From: Candidatus Altimarinota bacterium
GTDB lineage: Bacteria; Patescibacteriota; Gracilibacteria; UM-FILTER-43-11
Reading direction: 5' to 3'
Assembly (NCBI GenBank): GCA_028281045.1
Contig: JANQKP010000006.1
Coordinates: 1 to 64,000, forward strand
Length of the DNA stretch: 64,000 bases
Within the stretch, counting starts at the first letter, position 1. Every line of letters starts with the position of its first letter. Positions 25,101 through 58,353 of the stretch are shown in pieces. A program made the translations under genes and the position numbers. The notes beneath the pieces were generated by a model. That model was not told the DNA's origin and searched no databases. It saw only the letters and a list, made by a program, of their open reading frames with translations.

Positions 25101-25211
25101 GCGAGGGGCTCCTTTGTAGAAAGATCAGACGCCACATGAGACGCCATTCATTAAGTAATAAAAAACGTCAAACATGGATTTAAATTATACCTTATAATAC
25201 ATTTTTGTCAA

Positions 25212-25239
25212 TAGACAGAATGTCTAAAACCTGTATAAT
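25212..25239 (+). promoter_or_regulatory. Promoter of the aroF leader
   Basis: TAGACA (25212-25217), 16 nt, TATAAT (25234-25239). Expected start about 25246, only 3 nt before the leader-peptide ATG, so the leader mRNA is nearly leaderless. Confidence 0.65.
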
Positions 25240-41832: not shown

Positions 41833-41861
41833 TTGCTTTTTTATTCATTTTTTGGTATAAT
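41833..41861 (+). promoter_or_regulatory. Promoter of the 1192-residue protein gene
   Basis: TTGCTT (41833-41838), 17 nt, extended -10 TTGGTATAAT ending at 41861. Expected start about 41868, 15 nt before the ATG at 41883. Confidence 0.6.
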
Positions 41862-41882
41862 AATTAGATTTAATTTAGGTTA

Positions 41883-44800
41883 ATGGCCACCGACCCAAAT
41901 CAACATCAAGAGGTAATTGAAAAGTTAGAGTCCCTTCAGGGAGCTCCTTCAAGTGAAGCTGATAAGATCATCGAGGATCTTAGTCAGCATAATCTTTTCA
42001 CGACGACAACGCCTGAAATTGTAGAATCTCAAAAAGCAGTTCGCGACAAAATAAACGAACTCATGGGAGGCTTAGATACCAATGTTAGCAATCAGCTGAC
42101 ACTGCTATTAGTGAAGCTAAAAATCCATGATCCAGATGCCACAATTGGGCAAAGAGACATGGGTAAAAATATTTTGGGACAAAGTATGCTTGCCTTCGCA
42201 GATGCCAAGGAGTTCATAGCTGTTATGCGTGACATGGAAGCCTATATTGCCAACCCAGAAAACCAAGTAACAGAAGGTGATATTGATGGATTACGTGCTA
42301 TTGGTATTGAAGTGAAAAACGGAGTATTAGCTACAAATAATGAGGCAGGTATGGCGCTTTCGAAAGTAGAAAGACTAGCCAAAGAAAAACTAGCAGCTCA
42401 GCAAGAAGCCGATAGAGAATTAAATAGCGTTCCTTTTGGAGTCTTTGAAGTGCCATATGTATCTAAGAAAAATGCCAAAGAGGCAATAGCAGCGATTAAG
42501 AAAATTACTGAGGCAGTAGGGAAAAAAGAAACCATTACTCCATTTGAAGCTGGAGCTATTTTAAGCGCAGCTACAGCACTTAAAGAAAGTGAGCTGCAAT
42601 CAGATTCTGACGTTATGGCCGAGCTTGCTGCACTGCAAGCTGTTGCAGATAGCAAAGAAGTTCGCGAAAGCGTGAATAAACAGGCCGAAGCGATATACGA
42701 AGCTGTTAAAGATCAAGCAGCCTTTAAAAACTATGGGAAAATTTGTATTGCTGTACGTAGTAGTGCCAAGGGAGACAGAGCAATTCAACTCGTTAGAAAC
42801 GATTTAAATTTTGGAGACCCTGAGGTGGCTAAAAAGGTCACCAGAGTACTACAAAAAAGTGATCACAGATTCTTCAAAAAACTGTTCAAGATGAGCATAG
42901 GAGAACTTAAAAAGGACCCTAAAAAAGCCCTTGTTCTACTTGTGCAATACAGACCTTACGGAATTAGACCAGAAAACGCATTAGAAGAAATTGTTAAGGT
43001 GAATAAAGAGCTAGCGCAGCTGATCACAGACGCAATTGCAGCAGATGAAACTACGGGGCCAACACCGGGAACAGGAAAAGGGCCAAAACCTGACACACCT
43101 GCAGGTCCAGGATCAGCGCCAGCAGATGCTGATGCAGACACGAAAGGAGCAAAAGCAGCTGGAAGCAAAAAAACAACCAAAAAGAAGACCGCTAAAAAGA
43201 CGGCTGCGAAGGAAAAGGCACCTGCGAAGGAAAGACCTAAAAAAACCATTGATACAGAACGTGGAAAAGCTCTAGAAAAAGTGGCGGAGGCAATCAAAGA
43301 GAAGCTATCGGCAAGAGAGCGTGACGATCTTGCAGATTTACTTCGCATTACAAAAATGACCTTCTCACATCCAGAGAATATTAGCCTGAAGGAAGTAGCT
43401 AAAAGTCGTGTTACAACCACTTTAGAGGCTTACGAAGGTCACCCTGAATATGTGGATGAATTTGTGCAAGAGCTCAAAAAAATCATAAAAGAAATTGGTG
43501 GAGGAAAAGCAATCCAAGAGGTATTTGATAGAGAAAAAGCCTTTAAAGACAATCCTGAATCAAAAGAGAATATTAAAGGAACAGATGAGTACAACAAGAA
43601 GAAAGAACGTATTATGATGCTACACCTTAGAGCTCATAAAGATTTCTTCAATGACATTTACACCATTTATGAACTAGATGCTTCGCTTGTAGAAGATGCA
43701 GAACAAAAAAGCATATTAAAGGATGTACAAAGAGCTATTGCAAAAGTACTAGAGGGTGAAAAACTAGCAGACCTTGAAGCTGTTGAGCTGGCTGAGCAAG
43801 AAACTAAAGCTGACGACCTGAAATCGAAATTCGATAACATCGAAAAATACATCGCTTACGTACTTGAAAACGTTGTAAGCAATATTGAAACAGCTAAGAA
43901 GAAGCTGTCGACACCTATTTCAGTGCCAGAAGTGAAAGTCGCTCCAAAAGTAGAAGAAAAATCGGAGGAACAGGAGGAAGAAGAAGCTGAAGAAACAACT
44001 GAAGAAGAAACAGGACCTAAGGTAGATACAAAAGAAAAACCAGAAGGACTTCTTAATCTCAACGTTCCTCAAATCAGCATGCAGGAAGTTAAAAATGCTT
44101 TTGGGCCACTACTTTATGATAAATCTCTAATCGCAAGAGATGACCCTGCTTCAAGAGCAATTCTCACTATGATCAATGTAAATGCTTCAAGCGTGAACAT
44201 GGATGAACTAGTGAGTTTCTTAAGAGATCCTAAAATGCCTGTAACTCCTGAACTTGAGGCCCTAATTGCCTTAGCCCAAGATAAGCTAGAAGAACAAATT
44301 GAGATTCTTAATGATGAAATGGACGACATTAAAAGAGATATTCGTCTGGAAGAACGTGAATACCATAGAAAAGGTGCAGATCAGACGGCAGTACGCAAAA
44401 GACTAGATGAACTCAATCAAGACATGCGCACCAAGAAGAACGAAGTGAACCTAAGAAAACAAGCTATTAAGATCAAAAACGGACAAATCGAATATGAATC
44501 AACGCGCAGTCTTCTTTATATGGTTAATGTATATATAGAACGTAAACAAAAAGGAGACAGTGCCGATGTCATAGACCTACCAGAGCTTATTGCCAATGCA
44601 GATAATCGCATACGTAAAGAGCGAAACCGTCTAAGAACTACAGGAGAAAAAGTAGCGGGAGCCCTTAACTTCATTACCCCACATAAAGGAGGTATTAAAG
44701 AGGTATTAAGAGGTATGGCTAACGATGAAATTCTTTCTGGTATTGGTGAAGCTAAACTCTTAGAACTGGCTACAATTAAAAAACCAGAAGATCAGGAAGC

Positions 44801-45461
44801 GCTAGATAAATGGCTGTCTGGTATTGGGAACTTAGAAACCCAATACAGACAAATTGTACCTAGGCTAATTGCTTATCTGGAATATGCCATGAACCAGAGG
44901 CTTACTACTCGTAAAAAACCTGTAGAAATGCTGCTAAGAGCCCTTAGAAAGGCTCGTAACAAGCATGTGCACAGAATAGTGGAAAAACAACATGCTGGAA
45001 AAGATAAAATGGAGCGTATTACTGCATTCTTCAGCATGCTAGACGAATACACTATTGATGAAAACATTATTAATACCAAGCTGCTGCGCAAAGGGCGCCT
45101 GAAGAATTTAGCTGCCCATAATATTGCTGGACTTGCTGCAGGTGGAGCTGCCTTCTACTTTACCGGTGGACTTGCCGGAGCTGGTTACGCTGCTCTAGCC
45201 GCCACAGGAGGATCCTTCTTGCCAGAGATATATAAAGGAACAAGAGACTCTTATAAATGGGTAGAAGAAAAGAAAAAAGAACATGAAACGGCGATTAAGG
45301 TTACTAAAAAAGTGGCCGCGGGGACCTTTGTTACTGCTAAGTGGGCCACTTGGATTGGTGCCAATATTGTAGGAGCAGGTATCCCATGGTATTTAAGAAA
45401 AAAGAAAATTGAGAAAATGGATGAAAATATCTTATCCGAAACCTCTAACGAAGAATCATAA
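41883..45461 (+). CDS. Giant unknown protein (1192 aa) of the novel large-protein locus
   Basis: No family recognised. Mostly helical and charged. Visible modules: an N-terminal helical region (1-380); a low-complexity linker (about 385-460) going from Gly/Pro/Thr to a Lys/Ala block (KKTTKKKTAKKTAAKEK), resembling histone-H1-like tails; a second helical region; an acidic Glu-rich block (about 690-715); coiled coil (about 800-880); and near the C-terminus hydrophobic stretches (about 1075-1105 GLAAGGAAFYFTGGLAGAGY; about 1145-1165) suggesting membrane insertion. No signal peptide. Overlaps the next gene's ATG by 1 nt. Confidence 0.8.
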   Translation: MATDPNQHQEVIEKLESLQGAPSSEADKIIEDLSQHNLFTTTTPEIVESQKAVRDKINELMGGLDTNVSNQLTLLLVKLKIHDPDATIGQRDMGKNILGQSMLAFADAKEFIAVMRDMEAYIANPENQVTEGDIDGLRAIGIEVKNGVLATNNEAGMALSKVERLAKEKLAAQQEADRELNSVPFGVFEVPYVSKKNAKEAIAAIKKITEAVGKKETITPFEAGAILSAATALKESELQSDSDVMAELAALQAVADSKEVRESVNKQAEAIYEAVKDQAAFKNYGKICIAVRSSAKGDRAIQLVRNDLNFGDPEVAKKVTRVLQKSDHRFFKKLFKMSIGELKKDPKKALVLLVQYRPYGIRPENALEEIVKVNKELAQLITDAIAADETTGPTPGTGKGPKPDTPAGPGSAPADADADTKGAKAAGSKKTTKKKTAKKTAAKEKAPAKERPKKTIDTERGKALEKVAEAIKEKLSARERDDLADLLRITKMTFSHPENISLKEVAKSRVTTTLEAYEGHPEYVDEFVQELKKIIKEIGGGKAIQEVFDREKAFKDNPESKENIKGTDEYNKKKERIMMLHLRAHKDFFNDIYTIYELDASLVEDAEQKSILKDVQRAIAKVLEGEKLADLEAVELAEQETKADDLKSKFDNIEKYIAYVLENVVSNIETAKKKLSTPISVPEVKVAPKVEEKSEEQEEEEAEETTEEETGPKVDTKEKPEGLLNLNVPQISMQEVKNAFGPLLYDKSLIARDDPASRAILTMINVNASSVNMDELVSFLRDPKMPVTPELEALIALAQDKLEEQIEILNDEMDDIKRDIRLEEREYHRKGADQTAVRKRLDELNQDMRTKKNEVNLRKQAIKIKNGQIEYESTRSLLYMVNVYIERKQKGDSADVIDLPELIANADNRIRKERNRLRTTGEKVAGALNFITPHKGGIKEVLRGMANDEILSGIGEAKLLELATIKKPEDQEALDKWLSGIGNLETQYRQIVPRLIAYLEYAMNQRLTTRKKPVEMLLRALRKARNKHVHRIVEKQHAGKDKMERITAFFSMLDEYTIDENIINTKLLRKGRLKNLAAHNIAGLAAGGAAFYFTGGLAGAGYAALAATGGSFLPEIYKGTRDSYKWVEEKKKEHETAIKVTKKVAAGTFVTAKWATWIGANIVGAGIPWYLRKKKIEKMDENILSETSNEES

Positions 45462-45787
45462 TGGATGACACTTCAAACAACATCAACATGCACGCCTACC
45501 TTGAAAAACTTTTCGAGGAAATGGGCATTACAGGTGAAAATAACGAGGCTAAACAAGCCGCGGAAGAAGCCGTTATTAAGACCCTTGTAACGCGTGTTTT
45601 AAAGGCCATAGAGAATGAAATAGAGGAAGATCTTATTGAAGAGGTGCTCGTGACTTACCCAGACGTAAACAGCCCTGAATTCCTCCAAGAAATCGTTTAC
45701 AGAAGCCCTGAAACGCAAGTAGCTATACTGGATGAAATGGATGCTTTTTATGAAGAAGCCATTGAAAATGCTCAAGCTTTTGCTTAA
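45461..45787 (+). CDS. DUF5663-like small helical protein
   Basis: 108 residues, acidic and all-helical: YLEKLFEEMGITGENNEAKQ, VLKAIENEIEEDLIEEVLV, then a second helix pair after Pro residues. This resembles the DUF5663 group described from Patescibacteria (pattern memory; a profile search would decide). Function unknown. Translationally coupled to the 1192-residue protein by a 1-nt overlap, so the two may work as partners; an acidic helical protein could bind the Lys-rich linker of its neighbour. Confidence 0.65.
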   Translation: MDDTSNNINMHAYLEKLFEEMGITGENNEAKQAAEEAVIKTLVTRVLKAIENEIEEDLIEEVLVTYPDVNSPEFLQEIVYRSPETQVAILDEMDAFYEEAIENAQAFA

Positions 45788-45834
45788 ATAAGTTGCTAAA
45801 ATAGAGACGCTTTTTTAATGTGCCCCTTTTGGTA

Positions 45835-45862
45835 TTGACAAATAAAATAAAAGTTGTATAAT
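45835..45862 (+). promoter_or_regulatory. Consensus promoter of the 341-residue protein gene
   Basis: Perfect TTGACA (45835-45840), 16 nt, perfect TATAAT (45857-45862): the best match to the sigma-70 consensus in the window. The TTG at 45854 lies within it, so translation must begin at the ATG at 45887. Confidence 0.8.
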
Positions 45863-45886
45863 AATGCTCTATTAACATCTTTTTCG

Positions 45887-46912
45887 ATGCCAAATACACC
45901 TAAAAACAATGTAGATAAAAGGGGAGATTTCTCTCTGATGCAAAGGCTTGCGGAATACCGTAAGGCAATGCCTCTTTTATCTGTTTTCAGCGTGGTTGGC
46001 GCTACAACAGATATGGCTCAAGCGGGGATGACTCCTACAATGCATGGGACAAGAGACGCAGTAGCTAGGCATTTGTATGAAGATGTTTATCGCGTACCTG
46101 AAGAAATGGATGACGCTGAAAAACTACTTATGGAAAAAACCATGCACGCCGTTTTAGCGAACTACATCCAAGCTACTTTTGATAAATACGGAAAAGTAAC
46201 TGGTCAAAAAGAAACTATAGATGCAGGAATCCAAGTGATGCTAGATCACTTTGGAGATATGCACTATAGAGACGATGGTAATGGCAAAATTACCGTAGAG
46301 CCTAGAGCTGGAGCAAATGCAGCTATCCCTGCTGGATTTAGCATGAAAATGTTCAATGGTTATGTGACTGAAATCAATGGAGTAAAAATCGATGTAGAAT
46401 CAGGAATGATTGCCTCTAGAGCAGCTGAAATTAAAGAAGCTGAAGCCCTAACAGAAATCGCTGAACTGGCCCTAAATCCAGATACGGTAAGTAACGTGAC
46501 AGATCATGAGTGGGATATCTTCAGACGTTTCTCTATGGACTTACCAAAGAGATTAATTGAAATCATCAAGGCTCGTGGAGTAAGAAATCAAGATGAGAAA
46601 GATTTACTAGACCTAATGGAAGTATTCTACGCAGACTGGAATCCGTACAGACAAGCTGAAAGTACAGAGGAGGTGAAAAAAAGAGTATTAGAAGGAACAG
46701 ATGAGCCTGTTCAGTTCATTGTTGAGGTAGTAGATGCCGAGAAGCAAGTGCTTTCTATCGGTCTTCAAAAAGGGCATTCAATTAGCCCAGTTCCGGAGAT
46801 TACACTTCGTCTTTTCTACTTCGATTTCAGCACTTTCCAATTCCAAGAAGACCAAGACAACTTTGAAAAAATGGCTGATGCTAACGATTTCTTTAGAGCT
46901 AAACTGAAATAA
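45887..46912 (+). CDS. Unknown protein (341 aa) of the large-protein locus, possibly exported
   Basis: No family recognised. The N-terminus has basic residues (KRGDFSLMQRLAEYRK) followed by a hydrophobic run (AMPLLSVFSVVGATTDMAQA, about 26-45) ending in AQA, which could be a signal peptide with a long n-region or a buried helix. The remainder is mixed alpha/beta; VQFIVEVVDAEKQVLSIGLQ and ITLRLFYFDFSTFQF suggest a beta-rich C-terminal domain. It has its own consensus promoter and terminator, so is expressed independently, probably strongly. Confidence 0.75.
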   Translation: MPNTPKNNVDKRGDFSLMQRLAEYRKAMPLLSVFSVVGATTDMAQAGMTPTMHGTRDAVARHLYEDVYRVPEEMDDAEKLLMEKTMHAVLANYIQATFDKYGKVTGQKETIDAGIQVMLDHFGDMHYRDDGNGKITVEPRAGANAAIPAGFSMKMFNGYVTEINGVKIDVESGMIASRAAEIKEAEALTEIAELALNPDTVSNVTDHEWDIFRRFSMDLPKRLIEIIKARGVRNQDEKDLLDLMEVFYADWNPYRQAESTEEVKKRVLEGTDEPVQFIVEVVDAEKQVLSIGLQKGHSISPVPEITLRLFYFDFSTFQFQEDQDNFEKMADANDFFRAKLK

Positions 46913-46941
46913 GGCCATTTATTAGCTTAAATAAGCCAAAA

Positions 46942-46971
46942 AGCCTGTTTTATTAAAAAAACAGGTTTTTT
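46942..46971 (+). terminator. Terminator after the 341-residue protein gene
   Basis: CCTGTTTT and AAAACAGG pair around ATTAAA-like sequence, followed by TTTTTT. Confidence 0.85.
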
Positions 46972-47016
46972 AGTATCGTCAAGGTTTTACCACTAGCTTT
47001 TTTAGTCAAAATTTGG

Positions 47017-47022
47017 TATAAT
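47017..47022 (+). promoter_or_regulatory. Extended -10 promoter of the 1583-residue protein gene
   Basis: TTTGGTATAATA repeats the box found before 41883. Expected start about 47029, 16 nt before the ATG at 47045. Confidence 0.55.
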
Positions 47023-47044
47023 ATTATGATTGAAATAAAAACAA

Positions 47045-50000
47045 ATGCATTCAGTTTTTAACAACAACGGCAAAGGTGATCTATTCGGATTCCTAAACAA
47101 GCGTCTTGTTTGGGCCGGTCCTGAAACTTTTGAAGCCGAAGATCTGCAGTCACAAGCTAGCGATCTTCTTAAGGTTTTTGAGCAAATTGATCAGGCCGAT
47201 ACCAACCAGGCTGAGGTGGAGAAAAAGCGTCCTTATCAAGATGCTGCTTCTCTTGTAGATTCCCTACTGCTTCATCCTGACTTTGATTCTCTTTCACACG
47301 GAGCAGATCCAGAAAAATCTAGCTTCCGTCAAAACGAGAGTCGTCGTCTGTTCATGAATCTTCTGAAACTAGAAACTGGAAACTTCGATAGCAACGACAT
47401 TCTTGGGCCATCTTTCGGAAATGATGCTGAAGCCAACAAGAACAACTTCCCATTCATTTTCAACGAATGGCTAAACGATAACCACACAGATATTGCTAAT
47501 CGCCTAAGCGAGGCAGACCGTGAGGCTAACGAACTTCAACCAGAAGACGACATTGCTGGATTCAACAAAAAAATTACTGCCCTAAACAAGGACATCAAGC
47601 TTAAAACTTCAACTGAAATTCCTGGAACGAAAAAATACTGGGAAGACTACGTAGCAAACGCACAAGACGTTCGTAACCGTCTTCATGAAGCCAGTGGAAA
47701 TACCGCTAGATCTTCTGATGCAGCTCTTTACACCAAGCTTGAAGAAGGAGCTCAAGATCATATTGATTTTGGGAAAGCGAAGTTACGCCTAAAAAACATC
47801 CAAAACCAAAAAGAAGAAGCTGAAAAAGCTTTCACCAAAGAAGGGATGAATGCAGATGAACTAACTAGACTTGCTCTTAGAAAATTCCAAGAAGCTTCTG
47901 CGATCGTAGACGAATTTGGAAAAGGAGGACTTGCTGGTGAAACTCGTATTAACATTTTCAACCCAGCGGTACGTCGCATGCTTATCATTTCAATTTACAG
48001 AAATGGAATTGGAGCTATGCAACGCAACGCAAGAAATGAAGAAGTATATTACAGCCCTAAAGACCTTGCGGGTCGTTATGGTTGGACTTTAACTCAAATT
48101 GCTAAATCAGAAAGATTCAATCGTCGTGAACGTGGTCAGCACTTAACGAATGATCAACGTGATGCTCTTGAGCTAATGAACTTAGCCAATGGGCATCTGA
48201 ATCAATTCCGTCAAAGAATGATGGAAAAACAAGCCATTGAAAACGCTCTTGTACGCTCTATGGCACTTGCTTCTACTGAAGTTGAAATTACAGGGAAAAC
48301 CTTTGGAACAAGCACGGAAACTGTAGAAAGTTGGTTTGCCAAAGTAAACGAACTTGAAAATGAATTCGTAGATAAAGCAAAAAACACTCCTCAAGGACGT
48401 GCAGTTTACACAAAACACCCTGAATATAAACAAATTTTACTAGCGATCAACGTTGAAATTGTTGAAGACGCAGCGCTTAAAGAGCAGCTGACTCAAATCC
48501 GCAACGATATTGAGTCTATTAATACAGGTCTTATTTCTGAAGCAGCTTCGAAAATGAGTAAAGAAGCCTTCAAAGATAATCCTGAGCTTCAATTTATTGC
48601 TGGTGTTGAACTTCAACCAAATTCAGCTGGTCGTATGACCAAATTTGTACGCATGATTGAGAGCCTAGAAGAAGCGGCTCAAAAAGAAGCTCTTGGAGAC
48701 AAATTCGATACCTTTAATAAACTGACTACCGAAGATGAAAAAGCAACTTTCCTAACGAATAATCCAGACACTCTAGATGCCGCTCGTAAGATCCGTATGG
48801 ATCAGCTAAGAGCAGCCGTAGATACGGCCGATATCACTAAGAGTCAAAAAAGAATACTGCTTAATCTACTGGCTTACGAACAACTTCAAATCGATATGCC
48901 AGTATGGGAGAAATTCGTGGCTCAAACGGGTGAATTCATGAAAAATCCAGACTCTGCAGAGTCTCGTGCTTTCTTAGAAAGAGCACGTCTTGGACGCACT
49001 ATTGCAGCGACAGGGGGAATGAGAGAAAACATGCTTAAATTCAGCCAAGACATGCGTGAAATCGATCTAGATTACAACGCTTCTACTTACAGAGAAGCTG
49101 CTGATGAAACCCTGCTACTACGTGAAGTGGGTATTAATATAGAAGGAGCTTACGAACAATATACTACTTATATAAAAGATAATCCTGAGATGCTGGTTGG
49201 CGATTGGGATCATCACCTAAGTAACCCAGATGGAATCGGGAAGTTAAAAGATATGTTTGCTGCCATTCTTCCAGACACATTCACAGATGGTGAAAAAGCA
49301 AATGGTAAGACTCAATTCCTAGCAACACTTGAATCAATTTCAAGTATTTCTACCAAATCTCTTTCTACTTCTCCAGATGCTAAAAATAATGAATGGGTAG
49401 CCTTCAAGCTATACAATCTTATTAAGTCAGATATTGTGACTAGAGAGCGTATTATTGGGCACTCTGAGCTTTCTGCAGAAGAAATTAAAGACCAATTAGA
49501 AGGTATTACTATTGGTGAAAAAGCCACCGAATACTTTACAGGTGCCTTTGACATGCTCGTAGGACCAGGACAATCTCCTGCGAATCGCGCTGCTGGTCTT
49601 GTTATGGTAATTGCTGCTTGGAAACTAGCGAAAAAAGCTTATAGAGGTGAAGGTAAACTTGGTAAAAGCTTGCAACTTCTTGCTGTAGCGGGAGCTGCTG
49701 AACTTGGTCTAAAAGAATGGACTGGACGCGGTATTCTAGACCGTGCAGGACTCTTTGGAGTAGCTGAAGCCATTGAAGGAACCTTTGAAGATGTACTTGT
49801 GGAAGATGGTAAAGAGTACATGGAAAATCTAGAAGATGGACAAGACACTATTTCTCCTACAGAGCATACTTCTGCACTTCTAGAGCTTAATAAAGTACCT
49901 TTCCACGAAGTAATGGAATGGTATGAAAAATCTAGCTCTATGGGGCAACCTCTAAGTGGACAAGAAGATGCATTCCCAGGAGGAATTGATACCTACAATA

Positions 50001-51796
50001 TTGTAAAAGGAGCCATCAAGTTCAAGAACGTTGATGAAGAAAAAAGAGCTCGTTATGTAGTGCGTAAAACTGTAGAACAGTTCATGCAATACGTAGGACA
50101 AAAAGACGGAAGAGATCGCAATACAGGTAAAAACATCCTTAAAGAAAGGTATGTAGACCCTCTTGCTTATGGATCTTATGAGAAAGATAAAGACAGTGTT
50201 TATACTGAATTTATCCATGAACAGCTTATGAAAAGCTACAGCGGAAATCGCGATGAGCTGACATGGCAAGTAGTGATGTACGCTGAAATCAATCCTTCAG
50301 ACGTAGAAAGAGTTAAAGGAAAAGACCTTACAGATATTGTTTCTGAGAAATATCAAAAAGCAAAAGCTCTATTCTTCTCTGAAATGTGGAATCCAACTGA
50401 AAAAGCTGCTAAAGACTTCTGGAACGATGTGGAATATGACTACGCTCCAAGTGCTAAACGCTTTATTCAAGACACCTTCAAAGAAGCTGATTATCAACTG
50501 GAATATGCAGGTGAATATATTGAAGTAACCTATGGAGCAAACAAGGATAAAGTAGCGAAAATTTGGAGAGACCATGTAGAACTTGTGAAAGAAGGAGTAA
50601 TGCTTCCATTTGAACTTCTTTATGCAGTAGATCAAGCTGTTGTGCCATGGGTAGGAACTAAAATGCGTCAAATCCGTGAGATTGTACGTAACGATCAAAT
50701 GATCACTATCAAGGCGCCGCTTCAGCTTAAAGACCTTGTTGAAAATACAGGTAAGCCTAATAGCGTACAGCTATTAGATAATGCCGGTAATCTGCTGAAC
50801 GTAACAGAGAAAGAAATTGAAGATCCAGATAACAATAAACTATTTAGCTACCTAGGAAGATATACTTATGAATTCTTACTCGCTGGAGGAAGCTTCCAAG
50901 GTGGAGGTGAAGCCTACCATGAGGATGCTGAAAAAATTGGATACTACATTTCACAAGTAACAGCTAAAGAGGCAGGAATTTCTAACTCAGATAGTGCAAG
51001 TGAGCGTCTTAAGAAAATGCGTAAGAAATCACTAGAAAAAGCTTACGATCAGTTCGAAAGAAAGAATCCAAACCTAAGCCGTGAAGAAATTGAAGAATAC
51101 GTAGACGGAATCCATGAGGTGATTCAAGTAGACGCTGCTGGTAACGAAAAGGCACCTACGAATATGTATATTTTCTGGCGTATGCCACTTGAAAATAGCT
51201 CTGAATTCTTCCTGAAAGAAACAGGTAGATTCCCAGGATATCTAGATGCGGCTAATCACAAGATTGAGCCACCATTTGCAATTGACCCTAGTCTAAGTGT
51301 GGTAGAAAACCTTAAAAATGCCATGGTTTACGAGAGTAAGAATGCTCGTATAATTGGTAGTTATGCAGGGATTGCCTTTGCACAGTGGTTCAGAGTAGCA
51401 GAAGGTATTGCTGGTACTGCTGGTACTGCCCTTGCAGGAACTCTAGACGTTATTGGGCTTGGATACATCGATAAAAAAGATGTGGAATTCCTTAAAACTA
51501 TGTTGAATGCGAACGAAGAAACCAAGCAGCAAATTGATGAACTTTCGGGTTCTGCTGCATATCCTTCACTAGCTCTTTCTAACCTTTATAAGGTAGAGGC
51601 TAATGCAGAGGCCTACAAAGATGCACTAGATAAAGCTCGTAAAGGTGGGGTGGCACTAGATCTAACAAACTTCAACCCTATTACAACAAAAACTGTAAGA
51701 AATAATGCAGGTCAATTTGTGCGAGTGCCTATGAAGTACACTGACGAACGTGGGCAACAAAAAAATCTAAAACATTTCTCTAAACTTTATAAATAG
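47045..51796 (+). CDS. Giant unknown protein (1583 aa) of the large-protein locus
   Basis: The largest gene in the window; no family recognised. Mostly helical and polar with no repeats that I can see. One membrane-like region at about 843-890 (GLVMVIAAWKLAKKAYRG, then LLAVAGAAELGLKEW) and another near 1438-1475 (SYAGIAFAQWF, GIAGTAGTALAGTLDVIGLG), so it may span or associate with the membrane with a large N-terminal half on one side. The C-terminal 60 residues are basic. Composition and lack of a Shine-Dalgarno match native genes. Own extended -10 promoter. Function unknown. Confidence 0.8.
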   Translation: MHSVFNNNGKGDLFGFLNKRLVWAGPETFEAEDLQSQASDLLKVFEQIDQADTNQAEVEKKRPYQDAASLVDSLLLHPDFDSLSHGADPEKSSFRQNESRRLFMNLLKLETGNFDSNDILGPSFGNDAEANKNNFPFIFNEWLNDNHTDIANRLSEADREANELQPEDDIAGFNKKITALNKDIKLKTSTEIPGTKKYWEDYVANAQDVRNRLHEASGNTARSSDAALYTKLEEGAQDHIDFGKAKLRLKNIQNQKEEAEKAFTKEGMNADELTRLALRKFQEASAIVDEFGKGGLAGETRINIFNPAVRRMLIISIYRNGIGAMQRNARNEEVYYSPKDLAGRYGWTLTQIAKSERFNRRERGQHLTNDQRDALELMNLANGHLNQFRQRMMEKQAIENALVRSMALASTEVEITGKTFGTSTETVESWFAKVNELENEFVDKAKNTPQGRAVYTKHPEYKQILLAINVEIVEDAALKEQLTQIRNDIESINTGLISEAASKMSKEAFKDNPELQFIAGVELQPNSAGRMTKFVRMIESLEEAAQKEALGDKFDTFNKLTTEDEKATFLTNNPDTLDAARKIRMDQLRAAVDTADITKSQKRILLNLLAYEQLQIDMPVWEKFVAQTGEFMKNPDSAESRAFLERARLGRTIAATGGMRENMLKFSQDMREIDLDYNASTYREAADETLLLREVGINIEGAYEQYTTYIKDNPEMLVGDWDHHLSNPDGIGKLKDMFAAILPDTFTDGEKANGKTQFLATLESISSISTKSLSTSPDAKNNEWVAFKLYNLIKSDIVTRERIIGHSELSAEEIKDQLEGITIGEKATEYFTGAFDMLVGPGQSPANRAAGLVMVIAAWKLAKKAYRGEGKLGKSLQLLAVAGAAELGLKEWTGRGILDRAGLFGVAEAIEGTFEDVLVEDGKEYMENLEDGQDTISPTEHTSALLELNKVPFHEVMEWYEKSSSMGQPLSGQEDAFPGGIDTYNIVKGAIKFKNVDEEKRARYVVRKTVEQFMQYVGQKDGRDRNTGKNILKERYVDPLAYGSYEKDKDSVYTEFIHEQLMKSYSGNRDELTWQVVMYAEINPSDVERVKGKDLTDIVSEKYQKAKALFFSEMWNPTEKAAKDFWNDVEYDYAPSAKRFIQDTFKEADYQLEYAGEYIEVTYGANKDKVAKIWRDHVELVKEGVMLPFELLYAVDQAVVPWVGTKMRQIREIVRNDQMITIKAPLQLKDLVENTGKPNSVQLLDNAGNLLNVTEKEIEDPDNNKLFSYLGRYTYEFLLAGGSFQGGGEAYHEDAEKIGYYISQVTAKEAGISNSDSASERLKKMRKKSLEKAYDQFERKNPNLSREEIEEYVDGIHEVIQVDAAGNEKAPTNMYIFWRMPLENSSEFFLKETGRFPGYLDAANHKIEPPFAIDPSLSVVENLKNAMVYESKNARIIGSYAGIAFAQWFRVAEGIAGTAGTALAGTLDVIGLGYIDKKDVEFLKTMLNANEETKQQIDELSGSAAYPSLALSNLYKVEANAEAYKDALDKARKGGVALDLTNFNPITTKTVRNNAGQFVRVPMKYTDERGQQKNLKHFSKLYK

Positions 51797-52165
51797 AGAA
51801 AATTTGGGCTAATTCATCCAAATTTGCTTGACCTTAGGCCCTTGACATAAAAAGCCAAAAGTGCTATTTTTTGCTAAACATGAAGAAAACCGCAAGAGAA
51901 AGCGGTTTTTTCTTGTTTTAGTTCTACTATTTTGATTACTTGACAAAACCTATTTTATATTGACTAATAATAAAAAATATAGTAGAATATCACTCACATT
52001 GAAGTATTTTGACACCTCCGCGTGTTTTTATGTCTTCAAATGATCCTTTACATCACGTGGTTTAGCAGAGAAAAATTTGTTTTTAGTCTCGTTATGAGTG
52101 CTAAAGGCAACTATTCTCTGTTATCGATTTTAAACACCAACCATTCAACTTTAAGGAGCGCTTTC
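51797..52165 (+). other. 369-base intergenic region with stacked promoters and hairpins
   Basis: Contains, in order: an AAATTTGG/CCAAATTT inverted repeat (51800-51825); a promoter TTGACA-N17-TATTTT (51842-51870); a mini-ORF whose body is a terminator hairpin; a further TTGACT-N17-TAGAAT promoter-like pair near 51960-51990; and a GC-richer leader (from about 52010) ending in AAGGAG before the gene at 52166. The last part shares composition with that gene. Confidence 0.5.
51884..51913 (+). terminator. Terminator hairpin inside a 13-codon mini-ORF
   Basis: AAAACCGC and GCGGTTTT pair around AAGAGAAA, followed by TT. The same bases encode MKKTARESGFFLF (ATG 51880, TAG after Phe13), starting about 3 nt after the expected start of the TTGACA promoter at 51842. 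Either a very short terminated transcript or chance. Confidence 0.7.
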
Positions 52166-53107
52166 ATGTTTGGAAAAGGAGATGCCGCCCTTGGGGCGAT
52201 CAAAGTCCTTTTCTACTTTCTGACCGAGGTCAGTAGTAGATTAGTCAATTTCATCCTGGGTAACGTGGCGCAAGTGCCGTTTTACCCTTTTCCCAAAAAC
52301 ACTTTTGACGACTGGGCTGGATACCTGGTCGCGACGTCGGTCTGGATCATGTGGTTCATGTTCCTGCACCGATTCAAAAAGATCGACGAACTGTGGGATA
52401 GGGCGAGCTCATTGCAAACCCTGGCACGCTGGCTGTCAGAGCCAAAAGCCCCCATGGTCCTGAAGATCGTTTACTGGATCATTGTCATAGTCTCAGGGTT
52501 TCTCTGGTTCATTGTTTTGTTCTATCACATCCGGGTTGTGCGCTTCTTGTTCAGCATGAGCGTTATCAACTGGGTGGCGAACAAGCCAATAACCACTGTG
52601 CTTGGATTCTGTGTGTGGATGTGGGCTGAGAAGTTCCACGCCGCCACTCGTGAAGAGCGCATTCAACTCTGGAACAGGCATGTTTCCGAACAACCAAAAA
52701 CGCGAGCTCAGTGGCTGAGCGAACGAGCAAACTTCCTGCTGTTCTTTGTCTTCGGAGACTACATATCCGAAGAGTCGTTCAGTAAGTGCAAACGCTGCAA
52801 ACATGCTATGGAGCATGATGCTAAAAAGTGTGTCTACTGTGGCTGGGAGAACCCCCAAGCCCCCTGGAAATGTGAGTGTGGCGAGGAAAACAATAATCCG
52901 CTGAGCGTCTTTTGTGTGCACGGCAACCCTCGACCCCCTCGACCCCCCGCAATTCCTACGACCACTTGCCCAGCCTGTAGCAGCGCAGAAGTTTCCTTGG
53001 AGGCCAATTTTTGCTGGAAATGCAAAGAGCCAATTGACCTCAGCGAAGAACTCGCAAAAGCCATGTCAGATAATTCGGAAGGAGCAGATCCGCTGGCAAA
53101 TCTTTAG
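52166..53107 (+). CDS. GC-rich membrane protein with C-terminal zinc ribbons
   Basis: 313 residues from the ATG with a perfect AAGGAG 7 nt upstream; an open GTG start 48 codons earlier lacks support. Helices at about 42-60, 95-118 and 130-150 form a membrane domain; the C-terminal third is cytosolic and carries Cys pairs KCKRCKH...KCVYCGW, WKCECGEE...FCVHG and TTCPACSS...FCWKCKE, i.e. two or three zinc ribbons. Family unknown. It is visibly GC-richer (30 of 60 in bases 52261-52320 by hand count) and Trp-rich unlike the surrounding giant genes, and is followed by a 15-bp hairpin. Likely transferred. Confidence 0.75.
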   Translation: MFGKGDAALGAIKVLFYFLTEVSSRLVNFILGNVAQVPFYPFPKNTFDDWAGYLVATSVWIMWFMFLHRFKKIDELWDRASSLQTLARWLSEPKAPMVLKIVYWIIVIVSGFLWFIVLFYHIRVVRFLFSMSVINWVANKPITTVLGFCVWMWAEKFHAATREERIQLWNRHVSEQPKTRAQWLSERANFLLFFVFGDYISEESFSKCKRCKHAMEHDAKKCVYCGWENPQAPWKCECGEENNNPLSVFCVHGNPRPPRPPAIPTTTCPACSSAEVSLEANFCWKCKEPIDLSEELAKAMSDNSEGADPLANL

Positions 53108-53120
53108 AATCGATAACCCC

Positions 53121-53155
53121 GTTACCTGTCCATCGCTAGTCGATGGACAGGTAAC
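53121..53155. repeat. Perfect 15-bp inverted repeat
   Basis: GTTACCTGTCCATCG and CGATGGACAGGTAAC pair perfectly around CTAGT, 13 nt after the stop of the zinc-ribbon gene. No T-run follows, so it is not a standard terminator; it may protect the mRNA 3' end or mark an insertion boundary. Confidence 0.8.
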
Positions 53156-53205
53156 ACTTCCCTTAATAATCAATTAATAATTCATAAATCACTAACCGAA
53201 CTCAC

Positions 53206-54165
53206 ATGGTTAATAAACCCAACAACCCAGGTAGATCAATCCTAGACAAAGTACGAAAGTCCACAGACTTGGAGTACTTTGAAAGCCTGCAAAAAAGAGC
53301 AGGAGGTAAAACTGCTTTTGCGTCGACTAATATTCTAATCACTACGCTTAGAATCAATGAGGTGCAGCCTGAACAGGCAGAAACCATTAGTCAGCAATTT
53401 GGCTTTAGTATGGCTGAATTAAAGCATGCTTTTGACACTCTACTTAAAAAATTAAGCGAGGAAGAGGGCCTTATGATCGACAGAAGTGACATTGTTCAAT
53501 CTGTAAAACCTCTGAAAGAGAGTGTTTTTGAAGACCTATTGCAACTAAATGGAGTCATGCGCAAAGGCATTAAAATACCTGGATTAAAAAGAAAGGGCGC
53601 CATTGAAAGAGTGGATGACTTTATTGCTCTTATGAAAAGAGAAAGTTCACTATGGGCTTCAGTAGAGTCAGACACTGAACACACTTGGGCTGTAGAGCTT
53701 GGTAAAGCCTACAAAGCAATAAAGCCCGAGCTCATCAAAGCCGTTACCTCTGGTGAATTAAAGGGCGCTAGAAGTGCCACCAAAGATGTATTAAACGCAT
53801 CTAAGCCAACGGAGAAAAAAGAGGCTAAAAAGCCTGCAGAAAGTAAAGATAGCTCTGTGGAGGCCCTAGAAGCGTTCCTAGTGGCCCAAATGCAGAATAT
53901 TGTAGGCGCTTTTCAGTCTAAATCAGAGGATGAGTACGTAGAAGAATGGCAAGAGCTCTTTGGAGGACTAGAAAGAAGAGAGGTAGTCGTAAGGCTAAAT
54001 GAAGTATTTGGAGGATCTCTGGGAATGGCCTTGCTTATTGCAACTCCTGAAGACGACTTCATGCAAATTCTAAGAAAACAGAAGCTTGTTACAGGAACTG
54101 AGCTCCATGAATATGTGCCAGAAATGAACGAATTAGCTGAAAAATTCAGCACTGCATTTGCCTAA
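53206..54165 (+). CDS. Unknown soluble protein (319 aa) of the large-protein locus
   Basis: No family recognised. Two helical halves (about 1-190 and 220-319) are joined by a Lys/Ala/Glu linker (KPTEKKEAKKPAESKDSS, about 199-216), a smaller version of the linkers in the 1192-residue protein. ISQQFGFSMAELKHAFDTL near 66-84 resembles a helix-turn-helix-like bundle, but no DNA-binding motif is certain. No membrane segment. Composition is native, so the locus resumes after the GC-rich insert. No clear promoter box directly upstream. Confidence 0.72.
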   Translation: MVNKPNNPGRSILDKVRKSTDLEYFESLQKRAGGKTAFASTNILITTLRINEVQPEQAETISQQFGFSMAELKHAFDTLLKKLSEEEGLMIDRSDIVQSVKPLKESVFEDLLQLNGVMRKGIKIPGLKRKGAIERVDDFIALMKRESSLWASVESDTEHTWAVELGKAYKAIKPELIKAVTSGELKGARSATKDVLNASKPTEKKEAKKPAESKDSSVEALEAFLVAQMQNIVGAFQSKSEDEYVEEWQELFGGLERREVVVRLNEVFGGSLGMALLIATPEDDFMQILRKQKLVTGTELHEYVPEMNELAEKFSTAFA

Positions 54166-54174
54166 AAACTACTA

Positions 54175-54203
54175 TTGACTAATTTACAATAATATTGTAA
54201 AAT
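54175..54203 (+). promoter_or_regulatory. Promoter of the 276-residue protein gene
   Basis: TTGACT (54175-54180), 17 nt, TAAAAT (54198-54203); expected start about 54210, 15 nt before the ATG at 54225. Confidence 0.6.
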
Positions 54204-54224
54204 AAATCTCACTAATTTACTACT

Positions 54225-55055
54225 ATGTTCCACGGTTCAACTACCATCTTCCATCACCAGAATGACGACTCCCACACAGGGATTCGCCCAAAACGTATGA
54301 CCTACAACGTTCTTGAAGGTATCGGTAATAAATGGACCGGATTCAAAGAAGGTGCTAAATCTAAGTACGATAAATTTAAGAGAGCAACGCTTCCTGCGCG
54401 TATTCCTTTTATGCCTATTGGATGGACCGTTAAAGGAAGTCGTTGGGCTTATCAAAAAGGAGATAAAAAATTCACAGAAGCTTGGTACACAGGGAAAGAA
54501 GCTGGAGGAGCCACCAAAGATATGGTGGGACGCCCACTACTAACCCTACTAAGTACTCCTGTTATGAGTGCTTGGCAAAAAACTATTGGAACCACTCGTA
54601 TTGCCTTCAATCGCCTAGTAAATTACCCAAGTAGAATTTGGGGAACTAGACAGCGTTATGCGGAGGCCCTTAAAGATAAAGGGAGTCGTATTTGGAACCT
54701 GCCTACTACCCTACTTGAAAATACTGGTTGGAATCCATTTAAAACCATTAATGGGTGGAGAAAGTCTATTGGACATGTACTTGCTCCTAGCATAACGATG
54801 AACACCTTTGGTCCACTTGTAGAACCTGCAGGAGCCGTGGCTTATAACATTGCAGATTCATACGCTATGTACGGAACCGCACCATTTACCGCAGCGAAAC
54901 AAGGAAGAGAAGGATGGGAACGTATGAAAGGTGCACCACGCGTTGGTGTTGAAAATGCTGCAGCCGCAGAAAAGGCAGAGGCAGCAGCCGCTAAAGCAGA
55001 AGCTAAGAAAGAAGCTGAAAAGGAAGCCGCCGCTAAAGGTGGTAAAGCAGCCTAA
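54225..55055 (+). CDS. Unknown basic protein (276 aa) with Ala/Lys/Glu tail
   Basis: No family recognised. Rich in Trp, Gly, Arg and Lys (about 15-220) with segments such as FKRATLPARIPFMPIGWTV and GRPLLTLLSTPVMSAWQKT, mildly hydrophobic, possibly membrane-surface binding. The last 45 residues are a low-complexity Ala/Lys/Glu helix (AAAAEKAEAAAAKAEAKKEA). No signal peptide. Last native gene of the large-protein locus, with its own promoter. The tail could be a coiled coil or a nucleic-acid-binding tail like those in the 1192-residue protein. Confidence 0.72.
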   Translation: MFHGSTTIFHHQNDDSHTGIRPKRMTYNVLEGIGNKWTGFKEGAKSKYDKFKRATLPARIPFMPIGWTVKGSRWAYQKGDKKFTEAWYTGKEAGGATKDMVGRPLLTLLSTPVMSAWQKTIGTTRIAFNRLVNYPSRIWGTRQRYAEALKDKGSRIWNLPTTLLENTGWNPFKTINGWRKSIGHVLAPSITMNTFGPLVEPAGAVAYNIADSYAMYGTAPFTAAKQGREGWERMKGAPRVGVENAAAAEKAEAAAAKAEAKKEAEKEAAAKGGKAA

Positions 55056-55703: not shown

Positions 55704-55743
55704 AAAGCCGCGTAACTGTTATAACCAGTGCGTGGCTTTTTTT
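55704..55743 (+). terminator. Terminator after the 55205 gene
   Basis: AAAGCC(GCG) pairs with (CGT)GGCTTT, with an inner ACTG/CAGT helix, followed by TTTTTTT. It abuts the convergent FecR/DUF5667 gene. Confidence 0.85.
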
Positions 55744-57754
55744 ATTGGTTTAAATTCTGTACACGTTCAATTTTACGCTGCACTTGTTTTCCTTTGTATT
55801 CAAGTGCTGCTTTTTCAGCTTCAATAATATAGCGATACATATAGTCTGCAGAGCGTGGGTTTAACTGAGAACGCACTAGATTAATGAATTCCAAATTGTC
55901 TTTGTATCTAGACACTTTCATAAGACGATCGATTTGGTTTTTTTGACCTGTGTAAGAGCTATAAATATTTACTTTTTCTACGAACTCATTTGCCTTAATT
56001 TCAACTGGGGTATAAACAATGGCCTGAGTCGCCTCAGTTGGTTTAAGCGGTTTAATAAGGGCAATGGTGGCTTGTACATCAGATTCCGCTGAAGTACTAG
56101 CGGTATCTACCATGGCTAGAAGTTCAGCATCAGCTTCTAGATCTACAAGATCATCGGCGATGTTATTGATTAGTCTAAGCTGTTCATTACGAGAAATAAG
56201 CACAGATTCTAGTAGTGCTCTACGTTCGTCTTCGTCTTCAATTGCGTTGGCTTCTTGAAGAATAGAAGAGAAGGCTAGTTCATGACTTACGATCACTTCT
56301 TTGGCAGATTCTAAGTTACCTGCATCTACCAGTTCTTGTAGTACTGCAAGGCGCTCATTGGTGTTTTCAAGGCGTACTTGTTCACGTTCTAGTGGCTCTG
56401 AAACAAAGAGCTCTTCGGTCATAAACAGAGCTTCGTTAATTAGCCCTGCAGAAGGTCCACTTGGAAGCGCGGCTACAAGGGTTTTTTGATTGTTCGCTAC
56501 AATGTCATTTGTCACAGAAGCAAGCACATCGTTTCCACTAGCTTCAGCAATTTCACGTGTTGCAGCTTGGTAAGCCATCAGGGCTTCTTTCGCCTCTGGA
56601 GTTTTCCCTTGTTCCATAAGAACAATGGCTTCATGAATGCGCTTATTTGCAATAGTAGTAAGCGCTTTTAGTTCGCTGTCTCCACTAAAGCTAAGGGCTA
56701 GACTTAGGCGTTCTTTAATCTGTTTCACAGGGTATAGGAACTGTCCTGGAAGCACTCCAACGCTGCGTTGCAAGTTCTCAAATTCTTGCATACGTACGTA
56801 AGCAATGTGGTCTTCATCGTAAGCAACATTGGCTCTAGTCCAATCGCTATCGTAATCTACTTTAGTCAGCTCAGAAGCACGTGCAATACGAGAGAAATCT
56901 AAGTTTTGAGTTCCAGGTTTTGCAGCTGTAATCGCTACTTTTTCGCCTGAATTTACTTTTCCATAAGCCACCACCTCATTGGTGTATTGCATCAGCGGAA
57001 GCACATCTACAGAGTGTTTATAAACAGAAAGTGTAGTCGGTAGATTGTTTTCAACCACTACATTAAACGAAGCATGTTTTGCTTCAATAATGCTGTCTCT
57101 AGTCACTAGTTTAAAGCGGGCAAATCCATCATCTACATTCATGGTTTGTACCCATGCGGTTCCTTCGTGAAGGATCATATCAATGGCTGCTTGGCGGGCA
57201 TAACCTTTACTTACATTTACGCTATCTAGGAGCACTAAAGTTCCTGGAGCTAAACGTACTTGGCTATCATCAAAGAAATGAAGCACGGCTTCACTATCTT
57301 CTCCTACTTTAATCAGGTCTCCAGCCGCTAAATTTGTTTGTACAGTAACTTCGTTCCAAATCAGGTAATCCGCATGTTTAACCGTTACATCTCCTTCAAG
57401 TACTTTCAGCACCGTTTCTTCAGAAGCAGATACATATTGCCCCCCATCTACGTATAAAAGCGTAGAGGTCACCGCAAGCATCATCACTAATGTAGAAGCC
57501 GCAAGTCGTTTAAAAAACAGCATCCATGTTGATACATGTTGCTGCGTAATTCGGGCCAGTAGTCTCATACGTGCTTGCGCGACAAAGGCAGGGCGAGGAG
57601 AGACAATTCCAACTTTTTTAAGGACAGAAAGGAGCCAACTTTCATTGGCAGAATTTTCAATGCGACTCATAAGACGAATTTTTGCAGATTTACAAAAATC
57701 ACTGGTAGGTTCTACCTTTTTCATCCCCCTTAGTTGTCGTTCTAATTCTTGCAT
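55742..57754 (-). CDS. FecR/DUF5667 membrane protein, probable anti-sigma factor
   Basis: 670 residues. A cytosolic N-terminus (about 1-78, two similar helical segments with FCKSAKIRLMSRI and FVAQARMRLLARI), one membrane helix (about 84-104), a FecR beta domain (about 112-270; GDLIKVGEDSEAVLHFFDDS, VRLAPGTLVLL), a DUF5667-like segment (GVLPGQFLYPVKQIKERLSL, about 335-400) and a long extracytoplasmic helical region. It starts 45 nt after the ECF sigma gene, so the cytosolic part probably holds that sigma factor and the outside domains sense envelope signals. Cytosolic part lacks the zinc-finger His-Cys motif of ZAS anti-sigmas. Confidence 0.85.
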   Translation of the reverse strand: MQELERQLRGMKKVEPTSDFCKSAKIRLMSRIENSANESWLLSVLKKVGIVSPRPAFVAQARMRLLARITQQHVSTWMLFFKRLAASTLVMMLAVTSTLLYVDGGQYVSASEETVLKVLEGDVTVKHADYLIWNEVTVQTNLAAGDLIKVGEDSEAVLHFFDDSQVRLAPGTLVLLDSVNVSKGYARQAAIDMILHEGTAWVQTMNVDDGFARFKLVTRDSIIEAKHASFNVVVENNLPTTLSVYKHSVDVLPLMQYTNEVVAYGKVNSGEKVAITAAKPGTQNLDFSRIARASELTKVDYDSDWTRANVAYDEDHIAYVRMQEFENLQRSVGVLPGQFLYPVKQIKERLSLALSFSGDSELKALTTIANKRIHEAIVLMEQGKTPEAKEALMAYQAATREIAEASGNDVLASVTNDIVANNQKTLVAALPSGPSAGLINEALFMTEELFVSEPLEREQVRLENTNERLAVLQELVDAGNLESAKEVIVSHELAFSSILQEANAIEDEDERRALLESVLISRNEQLRLINNIADDLVDLEADAELLAMVDTASTSAESDVQATIALIKPLKPTEATQAIVYTPVEIKANEFVEKVNIYSSYTGQKNQIDRLMKVSRYKDNLEFINLVRSQLNPRSADYMYRYIIEAEKAALEYKGKQVQRKIERVQNLNQ

Positions 57755-57798
57755 AAGTATTTAAGCACTATTTATAACGTAAAAATGGACAAAGTGTG

Positions 57799-58353
57799 TC
57801 AAAGTTTGTCTACATTTTTGTCTAGCATAGATCTGAGCTCTTTTAGAGCTCTAGATTGCAATGTTCTAACCGCCCCCTCAGATTTGCCTATTGCGGCTGC
57901 AATTTCAGGGTTTGTAAGGTCATTTATGTATTTCAGCACTATAACCTCCTGATAGTTACCAGGAAGCTTCTTAATGACCTTTTCTAGCCTTATTTTGGTC
58001 AATTTAACCTGTGTTTGCTTCTCTGGATCACTATGCTCCTTATCATCGGCGAAATTATCGTGTATTTCAGACACGCTGTCGTGTTTACGATAATGATCTA
58101 TCACCAAATTATGAGCAATCCTATACACCCATGAAGAAAAAGGGTGTTTAGTAGGTTTATATTTCTTTAAATTCTGCCAAACCTTTAAAAAAGTATCTTC
58201 GGTAAGATCTTCAGCGACTTCTGCTGAAGTTTTGTAATAAATATAGCGATACACTGGTTTTACCAGTTCATCATAAATCTGAGCGAAAGCGTCGCTATCT
58301 CCTGCTTGGGCTTTAACCACCAATGCTTTTAAGTCCTTTTTCTTTTTTGGCAC
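57799..58353 (-). CDS. ECF-family RNA polymerase sigma factor
   Basis: 184 residues. Region 2 (IYDELVKPVYRYIYYKTSAE, then VAEDLTEDTFLKVWQNL, PFSSWVYRIAHNLVIDHYRK) and region 4 (IKKLPGNYQEVIVLKYINDL, then TNPEIAAAIGKSEGAVRTLQSRALKEL split as two helices of a helix-turn-helix) are complete; sigma-3 is absent as expected. Directs RNA polymerase to an envelope-stress-type regulon. GTG start. Stop is TGA, one of three in the window. Followed on the same strand by its likely membrane anti-sigma partner. Confidence 0.94.
   Translation of the reverse strand: MPKKKKDLKALVVKAQAGDSDAFAQIYDELVKPVYRYIYYKTSAEVAEDLTEDTFLKVWQNLKKYKPTKHPFSSWVYRIAHNLVIDHYRKHDSVSEIHDNFADDKEHSDPEKQTQVKLTKIRLEKVIKKLPGNYQEVIVLKYINDLTNPEIAAAIGKSEGAVRTLQSRALKELRSMLDKNVDKL

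Follow-up and report, generated by a model that had tools for sequence, protein, structure and literature searches.

The window, by which we mean the whole stretch of 64,000 nucleotides analysed, corresponds to the opening 64 kb of contig C1 in a Ca. Peregrinibacteria genome of 1.207 Mb (nine contigs, 96% complete). The first-pass annotation had recognised six genes at this locus, encoding proteins of 1192, 108, 341, 1583, 319, and 276 residues. The ORF listing shows all six to be real and correctly placed, together with a seventh that was not among them, a zinc-ribbon/TM gene at 52022-53107. We call the first four HEL, SMALL, MID, and GIANT, and the last two P319 and P276. The features of the locus are listed here in order.

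41883..45461, plus strand: HEL, 1192 aa, all-helical, with Lys/Ala and Glu-rich linkers (ORF; orthologues at the equivalent place in relatives)
HEL aa 1080-1112: C-terminal hydrophobic stretch, Gly/Ala-rich
45461..45787, plus strand: SMALL, 108 aa, acidic (pI 4.1)
45835..45862, plus strand: sigma-70-type promoter preceding MID-GIANT, a perfect TTGACA-N16-TATAAT
45887..46912, plus strand: MID, 341 aa, fast-evolving, with orthologues located between SMALL and GIANT
47045..51796, plus strand: GIANT, 1583 aa, cysteine-free, member of a class-wide family
49523..49786, plus strand: GIANT hydrophobic hairpin, aa 827-914 (alignments A12 and A13; class and phylum searches)
50846..51220, plus strand: alpha/beta domain of GIANT (aa 1268-1392) with 'YIFWRMPLENSSEFFLK' at its end (AF2, reciprocal profile match, hhalign)
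51884..51911, plus strand: intrinsic-terminator-like hairpin, 3' of GIANT
52022..53107, plus strand: double-zinc-ribbon protein, 361 aa, GTG start (Pfam DZR, E=3.5e-5), with a strong TM helix at 149-167
53206..54165, plus strand: P319, 319 aa, locus member by position only
54225..55055, plus strand: P276, basic (pI 10), Trp-rich, with relatives in two to three genomes of the order

Low-complexity linkers had been described for several of these proteins; they are present in HEL (Lys/Ala and Glu-rich, residues 412-456 and 680-722) and in P276 (235-275), but GIANT has none. Individual strong promoters had also been proposed, which overstates the case. The perfect site before MID is well placed, but promoter-like matches show no overall excess (21 observed vs. 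29.1 +/- 4.8 in shuffles). Five plus-strand sites match at 10 or more of 12 positions, and four of these fall in gaps ahead of genes: one before MID, two before the zinc-ribbon gene, and one before P276. From the promoter, the terminator-like site, and the 1-base overlap of HEL and SMALL, we infer that the genes are likely read as two transcription units, HEL-SMALL and MID-GIANT. Elsewhere in the window, at 25184-25239, two divergent promoter-like sites stand back to back, the minus-strand one perfect and the plus-strand one with a single mismatch.

HEL, SMALL, MID, and GIANT form a real, conserved, and fast-evolving gene cassette at one site in the order. In relatives from several genera the four genes are co-oriented and keep a fixed order at one chromosomal site, and wherever contigs are long enough the arrangement is M17 aminopeptidase, HEL, SMALL, MID, GIANT, and then a zinc-ribbon or TM protein. 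The aminopeptidase gene is absent from the equivalent place in the window. Where contigs reach the flanks, DnaE/CCA transferase lies to the left of this arrangement and FecR-DUF5667/ECF sigma to its right. The zinc-ribbon/TM gene has a relative at the equivalent place in locus L021, and zinc-ribbon proteins follow GIANT in L018 and L023. Conserved synteny had been named as a test of the earlier reading; we find gene order conserved throughout the order and partly conserved class-wide. A single-sequence search recovers GIANT from 14 of the 18 genomes of the order and a profile from 16 of 18, including all 11 good genomes; its matches among named relatives are MAGs of Candidatus Peregrinibacteria and one labelled Patescibacteria group bacterium. 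Within the order, 12 genomes carry SMALL, which is likewise conserved in families f21 and f26 (f1 being the window's own family, and f4, f5, and so on other taxonomic families of the same class). P319 and a 161-aa protein have no detectable relatives. The idea that the genes act as one functional unit is supported for the four cassette genes; support is weak in the case of the zinc-ribbon/TM gene and of P276, and absent for P319.

The cassette proteins diverge rapidly. Median pairwise identity within the order is 30% for GIANT, 22% for both HEL and MID, and 39% for SMALL, compared with 63-68% for flanking housekeeping proteins (CCA transferase, ECF sigma, GuaA, M17). Lengths also vary widely among relatives, from 785 to 1706 residues in HEL and from 341 to 584 in MID. 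Beside the locus, a FecR/DUF5667 protein and a BldN-like ECF sigma factor (window 55742-58353, minus strand) are neighbours conserved in the order; the FecR-DUF5667 protein is as fast as the cassette (30% identity), but the adjoining sigma factor is not. We rejected this pair as part of the cassette: it is convergent, and none of the loci read in other families showed it.

By profile comparison, the GIANT and SMALL protein families extend to many taxonomic families within the class and were not detected elsewhere in the phylum. The order's GIANT profile gives weak matches to ORFs of 1.7-2.1 thousand residues in f5 and to one in f21. Profile-profile comparison of the order with f5 gives a probability of 97 (446 columns) and with f21, over its 'FWRMPL' stretch, one of 82; for f21 against f26 the value is 99.5. 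Reverse searches from the f5 and f21/f26 profiles recovered the order's GIANTs, and the f21/f26 profile matches the second domain of the window GIANT (50990-51232, E=1.9e-4) independently and reciprocally. The core shared by these proteins consists of two moderately hydrophobic helices separated by a short polar loop and followed by K..TG[KRE] (alignments A12 and A13). A hydrophobic hairpin followed by this element defines the class-wide family, and the window GIANT has both; in fuller form, the pattern 'NRAAG..hydrophobic..KAYRGEGK..hydrophobic..K..TGRGILDR' is diagnostic of the family. The hairpin profile matches the window GIANT at E=1.4e-26, by construction, as it is a training member. At E<=0.01 the profile finds matches in 56 of 242 class genomes, mostly in ORFs >500 aa, the weakest being near chance level; the families added include f2, f16, f18, f20, and f27. 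In a phylum sample of 380 genomes, all 13 hairpin matches at E<=0.001 belong to GIANT's class. Detection of GIANT across the class is patchy, which may reflect limited sensitivity.

For SMALL, the order alignment A3 and the class-wide alignment A15 are related with an hhalign probability of 97.6 (E=3.9e-12, 106 columns). The pI is 4.1 in seven of eight members of the order and 4.1-5.5 in distant relatives, and the window protein fits the class-wide family, whose members are acidic, about 110-125 aa long, and encoded next to giant genes. For HEL, profile comparison does not demonstrate homology outside the order (hhalign probability 1.8, order vs. f21/f26); the likeness there is in place and length only.

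Profile searches had been proposed as a check, and they gave no clear match to known unrelated families in Pfam, NCBIfam, PHROGs, PDB, or Foldseek. No cassette protein has a family match above the curated cut-off in Pfam, NCBIfam, or PHROGs, and searches for relatives by PDB sequence and by Foldseek against PDB and BFVD returned nothing significant. The description of the 108-residue protein as DUF5663-like did not hold: SMALL itself has no match, nor do eight members of the order. SMALL and DUF5663 (PF18908) are similar in length, and traces of similarity occur among SMALL relatives (E=0.1-0.19; 13.7 bits in an f18 relative and 12.8 bits in a consensus), but both scores lie below the Pfam gathering cut-off of 23.7 bits. 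A resemblance of SMALL to S100B (E about 0.007) was rejected as chance. GIANT has no second copy in its own genome, and we found no published description of the cassette in the open-access literature. By the tests run, the cassette matches no known kind, a result that rests on the absence of hits and that improved structures could alter. AF2 gave poor models (pTM 0.29 and 0.51). Residues 707-1192 of HEL are modelled as all-helical with a mean pLDDT of 62; GIANT reaches a pTM of 0.29, with residues 1268-1392 locally confident (blocks up to pLDDT 89). We rejected any fold claim from these models as too weak.

The largest proteins had been described as lacking signal peptides, and indeed none was found at their N-termini. 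HEL, SMALL, MID, and GIANT all have no signal peptide, and no export route was identified for the cassette. Nor do HEL, MID, and GIANT look like Sec-exported giant adhesins, having neither an N-terminal hydrophobic signal nor a Pfam surface domain. Membrane-like hydrophobic blocks, by contrast with the earlier description, are not found at the usual TM threshold (KD 1.6 over 19 residues), which no window in HEL, MID, or GIANT reaches; the GIANT hairpin is of borderline hydrophobicity, falling between membrane hairpins and buried hydrophobic cores. Membrane association of the cassette proteins is plausible.

The cassette is almost free of cysteine, with one in 3,722 residues against ~33 expected from the contig's cytosolic proteins (P about 1e-13). 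Across the order, cassette cysteine is 0.08-0.16%. Since cysteine-free helical proteins occur elsewhere in the genome and values are higher in f5 and f26, low cysteine is no proof of an extracellular place. The contig's large exported/TM proteins are also cysteine-poor, as are a few of its cytosolic helical proteins, among which the likely trigger factor has none.

An N-terminal motif resembling [RK][LF][VIL][FYW]..P is seen in several non-homologous locus proteins, including the window GIANT (47045-47150), and in loci L178, L184, L137, L022, L061, and others. Initially spotted by eye, the 'RLVF' motif was trained on the order, and its test in other families gives P = 0.017 (Mann-Whitney) and P = 0.024 (Fisher). 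These values hint, weakly, at a possible N-terminal leader shared by the locus proteins.

In other families of the class the neighbours of GIANT differ. The giant of f4, f20, f21, f23, and f26 has trigger factor, SMALL or other small genes, and a secreted HExxH zinc metallopeptidase in its vicinity; the small genes beside the giant in these five families are acidic. The metallopeptidase matches Peptidase_Mx / Mx1 (PF15887, PF15890; E down to 3.2e-7), and while it neighbours GIANT in these families, the like gene in the window's genome is on another contig (C4:30698-31501, equivalent to L143:8699-9502); there and across the class the enzyme has no precise family but is near Peptidase_Mx. Its neighbourhood on C4 holds no match to GIANT, HEL, or SMALL, though other cysteine-poor proteins occur there; further runs of cysteine-poor unknown proteins lie at C4:10034-12662 and C4:22685-27029. 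Of the 242 class genomes, 205 carry this metallopeptidase with its invariant PFEDFAE motif, and some of them belong to lineages without a giant alongside. Because the gene is near-universal, occurs also without a giant beside it, and sits on another contig in the window's own genome, adjacency is not proof of joint function, and we rejected co-occurrence as uninformative evidence for a functional link. In some class lineages the metallopeptidase reading frame continues through numerous TGA codons, as would be expected of code-25 lineages, which group with Peregrinibacteria (PMC11452946).

Other GIANT neighbours are more scattered. In f5, GIANT stands beside an exported LTD/nuclease protein; the proteins beside f5 giants at L055:6099-9866, L057:3-2525, and L058:12706-15417 look exported and carry lamin-tail, PKD, and staphylococcal-nuclease domains. 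Near an f25 giant, a 1043-aa protein (L134:3080-6211) has a lytic transglycosylase (SLT) domain, and multi-TM proteins adjoin GIANT in some loci. The f21 version of the cassette includes a protein of 497 aa (L061:2973-4466, minus strand) with a coiled coil and collagen-like GKDGIDGKDG repeats, without a signal peptide. On the window's own contig, two more giants, of 2012 and 2197 aa and both with N-terminal membrane segments, directly adjoin the likely trigger factor gene; this group of genes occupies C1:131925-144587 and C1:130482-131771.

The cassette resembles a cell-surface or envelope component more than it does ordinary metabolism. Our tentative proposal, which we hold as possible rather than probable, is that its products form one large envelope assembly that works in contact with other cells, with SMALL as an acidic, chaperone-like component. 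GIANT and HEL, mostly helical, poor in cysteine, and lacking Sec signals, would be synthesised in soluble form. SMALL, whose translation directly follows that of HEL, would act as an acidic chaperone covering the hydrophobic segments of HEL and GIANT until assembly. The conserved hydrophobic hairpin of GIANT would then dock the assembly on or into the membrane, with the zinc-ribbon/TM protein as anchor, and fast divergence would represent adaptation to changing partner cells. The first-pass annotation had suggested a membrane-associated assembly for host attachment or DNA uptake, for example. Host attachment is possible, pointed to indirectly by fast evolution, the near-absence of cysteine, and the secreted peptidase, secreted nuclease, and lytic transglycosylase neighbours; nothing points to DNA uptake in particular.

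The main rival is a cytoplasmic scaffold or cytoskeleton-like structure, peripheral to the membrane and serving shape, division, or an internal membrane, in which GIANT and HEL would be structural and unexported. The absence of signal peptides and the helical character of the proteins fit such a scaffold, the hydrophobic hairpin and the Trp-rich basic P276 suit inner-leaflet binding, and the occurrence of GIANT in almost all of the order's genomes would agree with a core cell function; in other families, the trigger factor gene next to the locus is consistent with folding in the cytosol. Divergence, however, is very fast for a core cytoskeleton, the proteins have almost no cysteine, and class-wide detection is patchy, perhaps through a sensitivity limit. 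We hold the scaffold, too, as possible rather than probable, nearly on a par with the envelope assembly.

Two further explanations were already disfavoured. A domesticated phage-tail or ejection apparatus, in which GIANT would resemble a tape measure with its small chaperone adjoining, draws on the long helical GIANT with its hydrophobic stretch, on the SLT transglycosylase domain in the f25 neighbour, and on weak tape-measure look-alikes in BFVD (best E 0.051, none at E<=0.001, and from a GIANT model that is itself poor). Yet scans of Pfam, NCBIfam, and PHROGs find no tube, sheath, baseplate, portal, or other tail gene in the locus, no relative occurs in IMG/VR or PHROGs, and the chromosomal site is constant in the order; we consider this origin very improbable. 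GIANT as a tape-measure protein was rejected on the PHROGs and BFVD results, and viral origin on the IMG/VR result. The genes might instead be unrelated, fast-evolving, and gathered at a permissive site without joint function, as the lack of detectable relatives for P319 and the 161-aa protein and the wide length variation of HEL and MID could suggest. For the four core genes this too is improbable: their order and orientation are fixed in several genera whose flanks partly differ, and the giant and small families occur together at different sites in the class's other families.

The envelope assembly may be put in a stronger form, as an undescribed, class-specific machine of Gracilibacteria/Peregrinibacteria that would combine giant cysteine-poor proteins, a Sec-signal-free route to the membrane or partner cell, a dedicated acidic chaperone, and possibly a short N-terminal leader ('R-L-V-F/Y..P'). 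We think this form unlikely as a whole. Host dependence in the CPR is known mostly from microscopy and type IV pili, and to our knowledge machines for it that are made of unknown proteins are a blank. The cassette is large, is retained in practically all good genomes of the order, can be recognised class-wide, and has no name in any of the family databases searched. With giants at 20-30% identity within one order and neighbours at >60%, it illustrates why such systems escape notice, and the GIANT hairpin and the SMALL-HEL pairing offer concrete targets for function that standard annotation cannot see.

Among known systems, type III secretion translocators pair with small acidic chaperones, and the cassette may be analogous in that small, acidic SMALL directly adjoins helical HEL with its hydrophobic segments. 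It differs in that no secretion machine lies close by, the locus contains no apparatus gene (Pfam, NCBIfam), and the sequences are not similar. Phage tail tape-measure systems likewise combine a small adjacent gene with a long helical protein that has hydrophobic stretches, but the cassette has no sequence or significant fold match to them, no tail genes, and no viral relatives. In Vampirococcus lugosii, of the same large CPR clade, giant membrane or surface proteins have been proposed to serve host recognition and attachment (PMC8080830). Those giants are inferred membrane proteins with WD40, PKD, fibronectin, and saposin domains (PMC8080830), whereas the cassette has no signal peptide and no recognised domain, and its multigene order is conserved; what the two have in common is very large, poorly known proteins in small genomes (PMC8080830).
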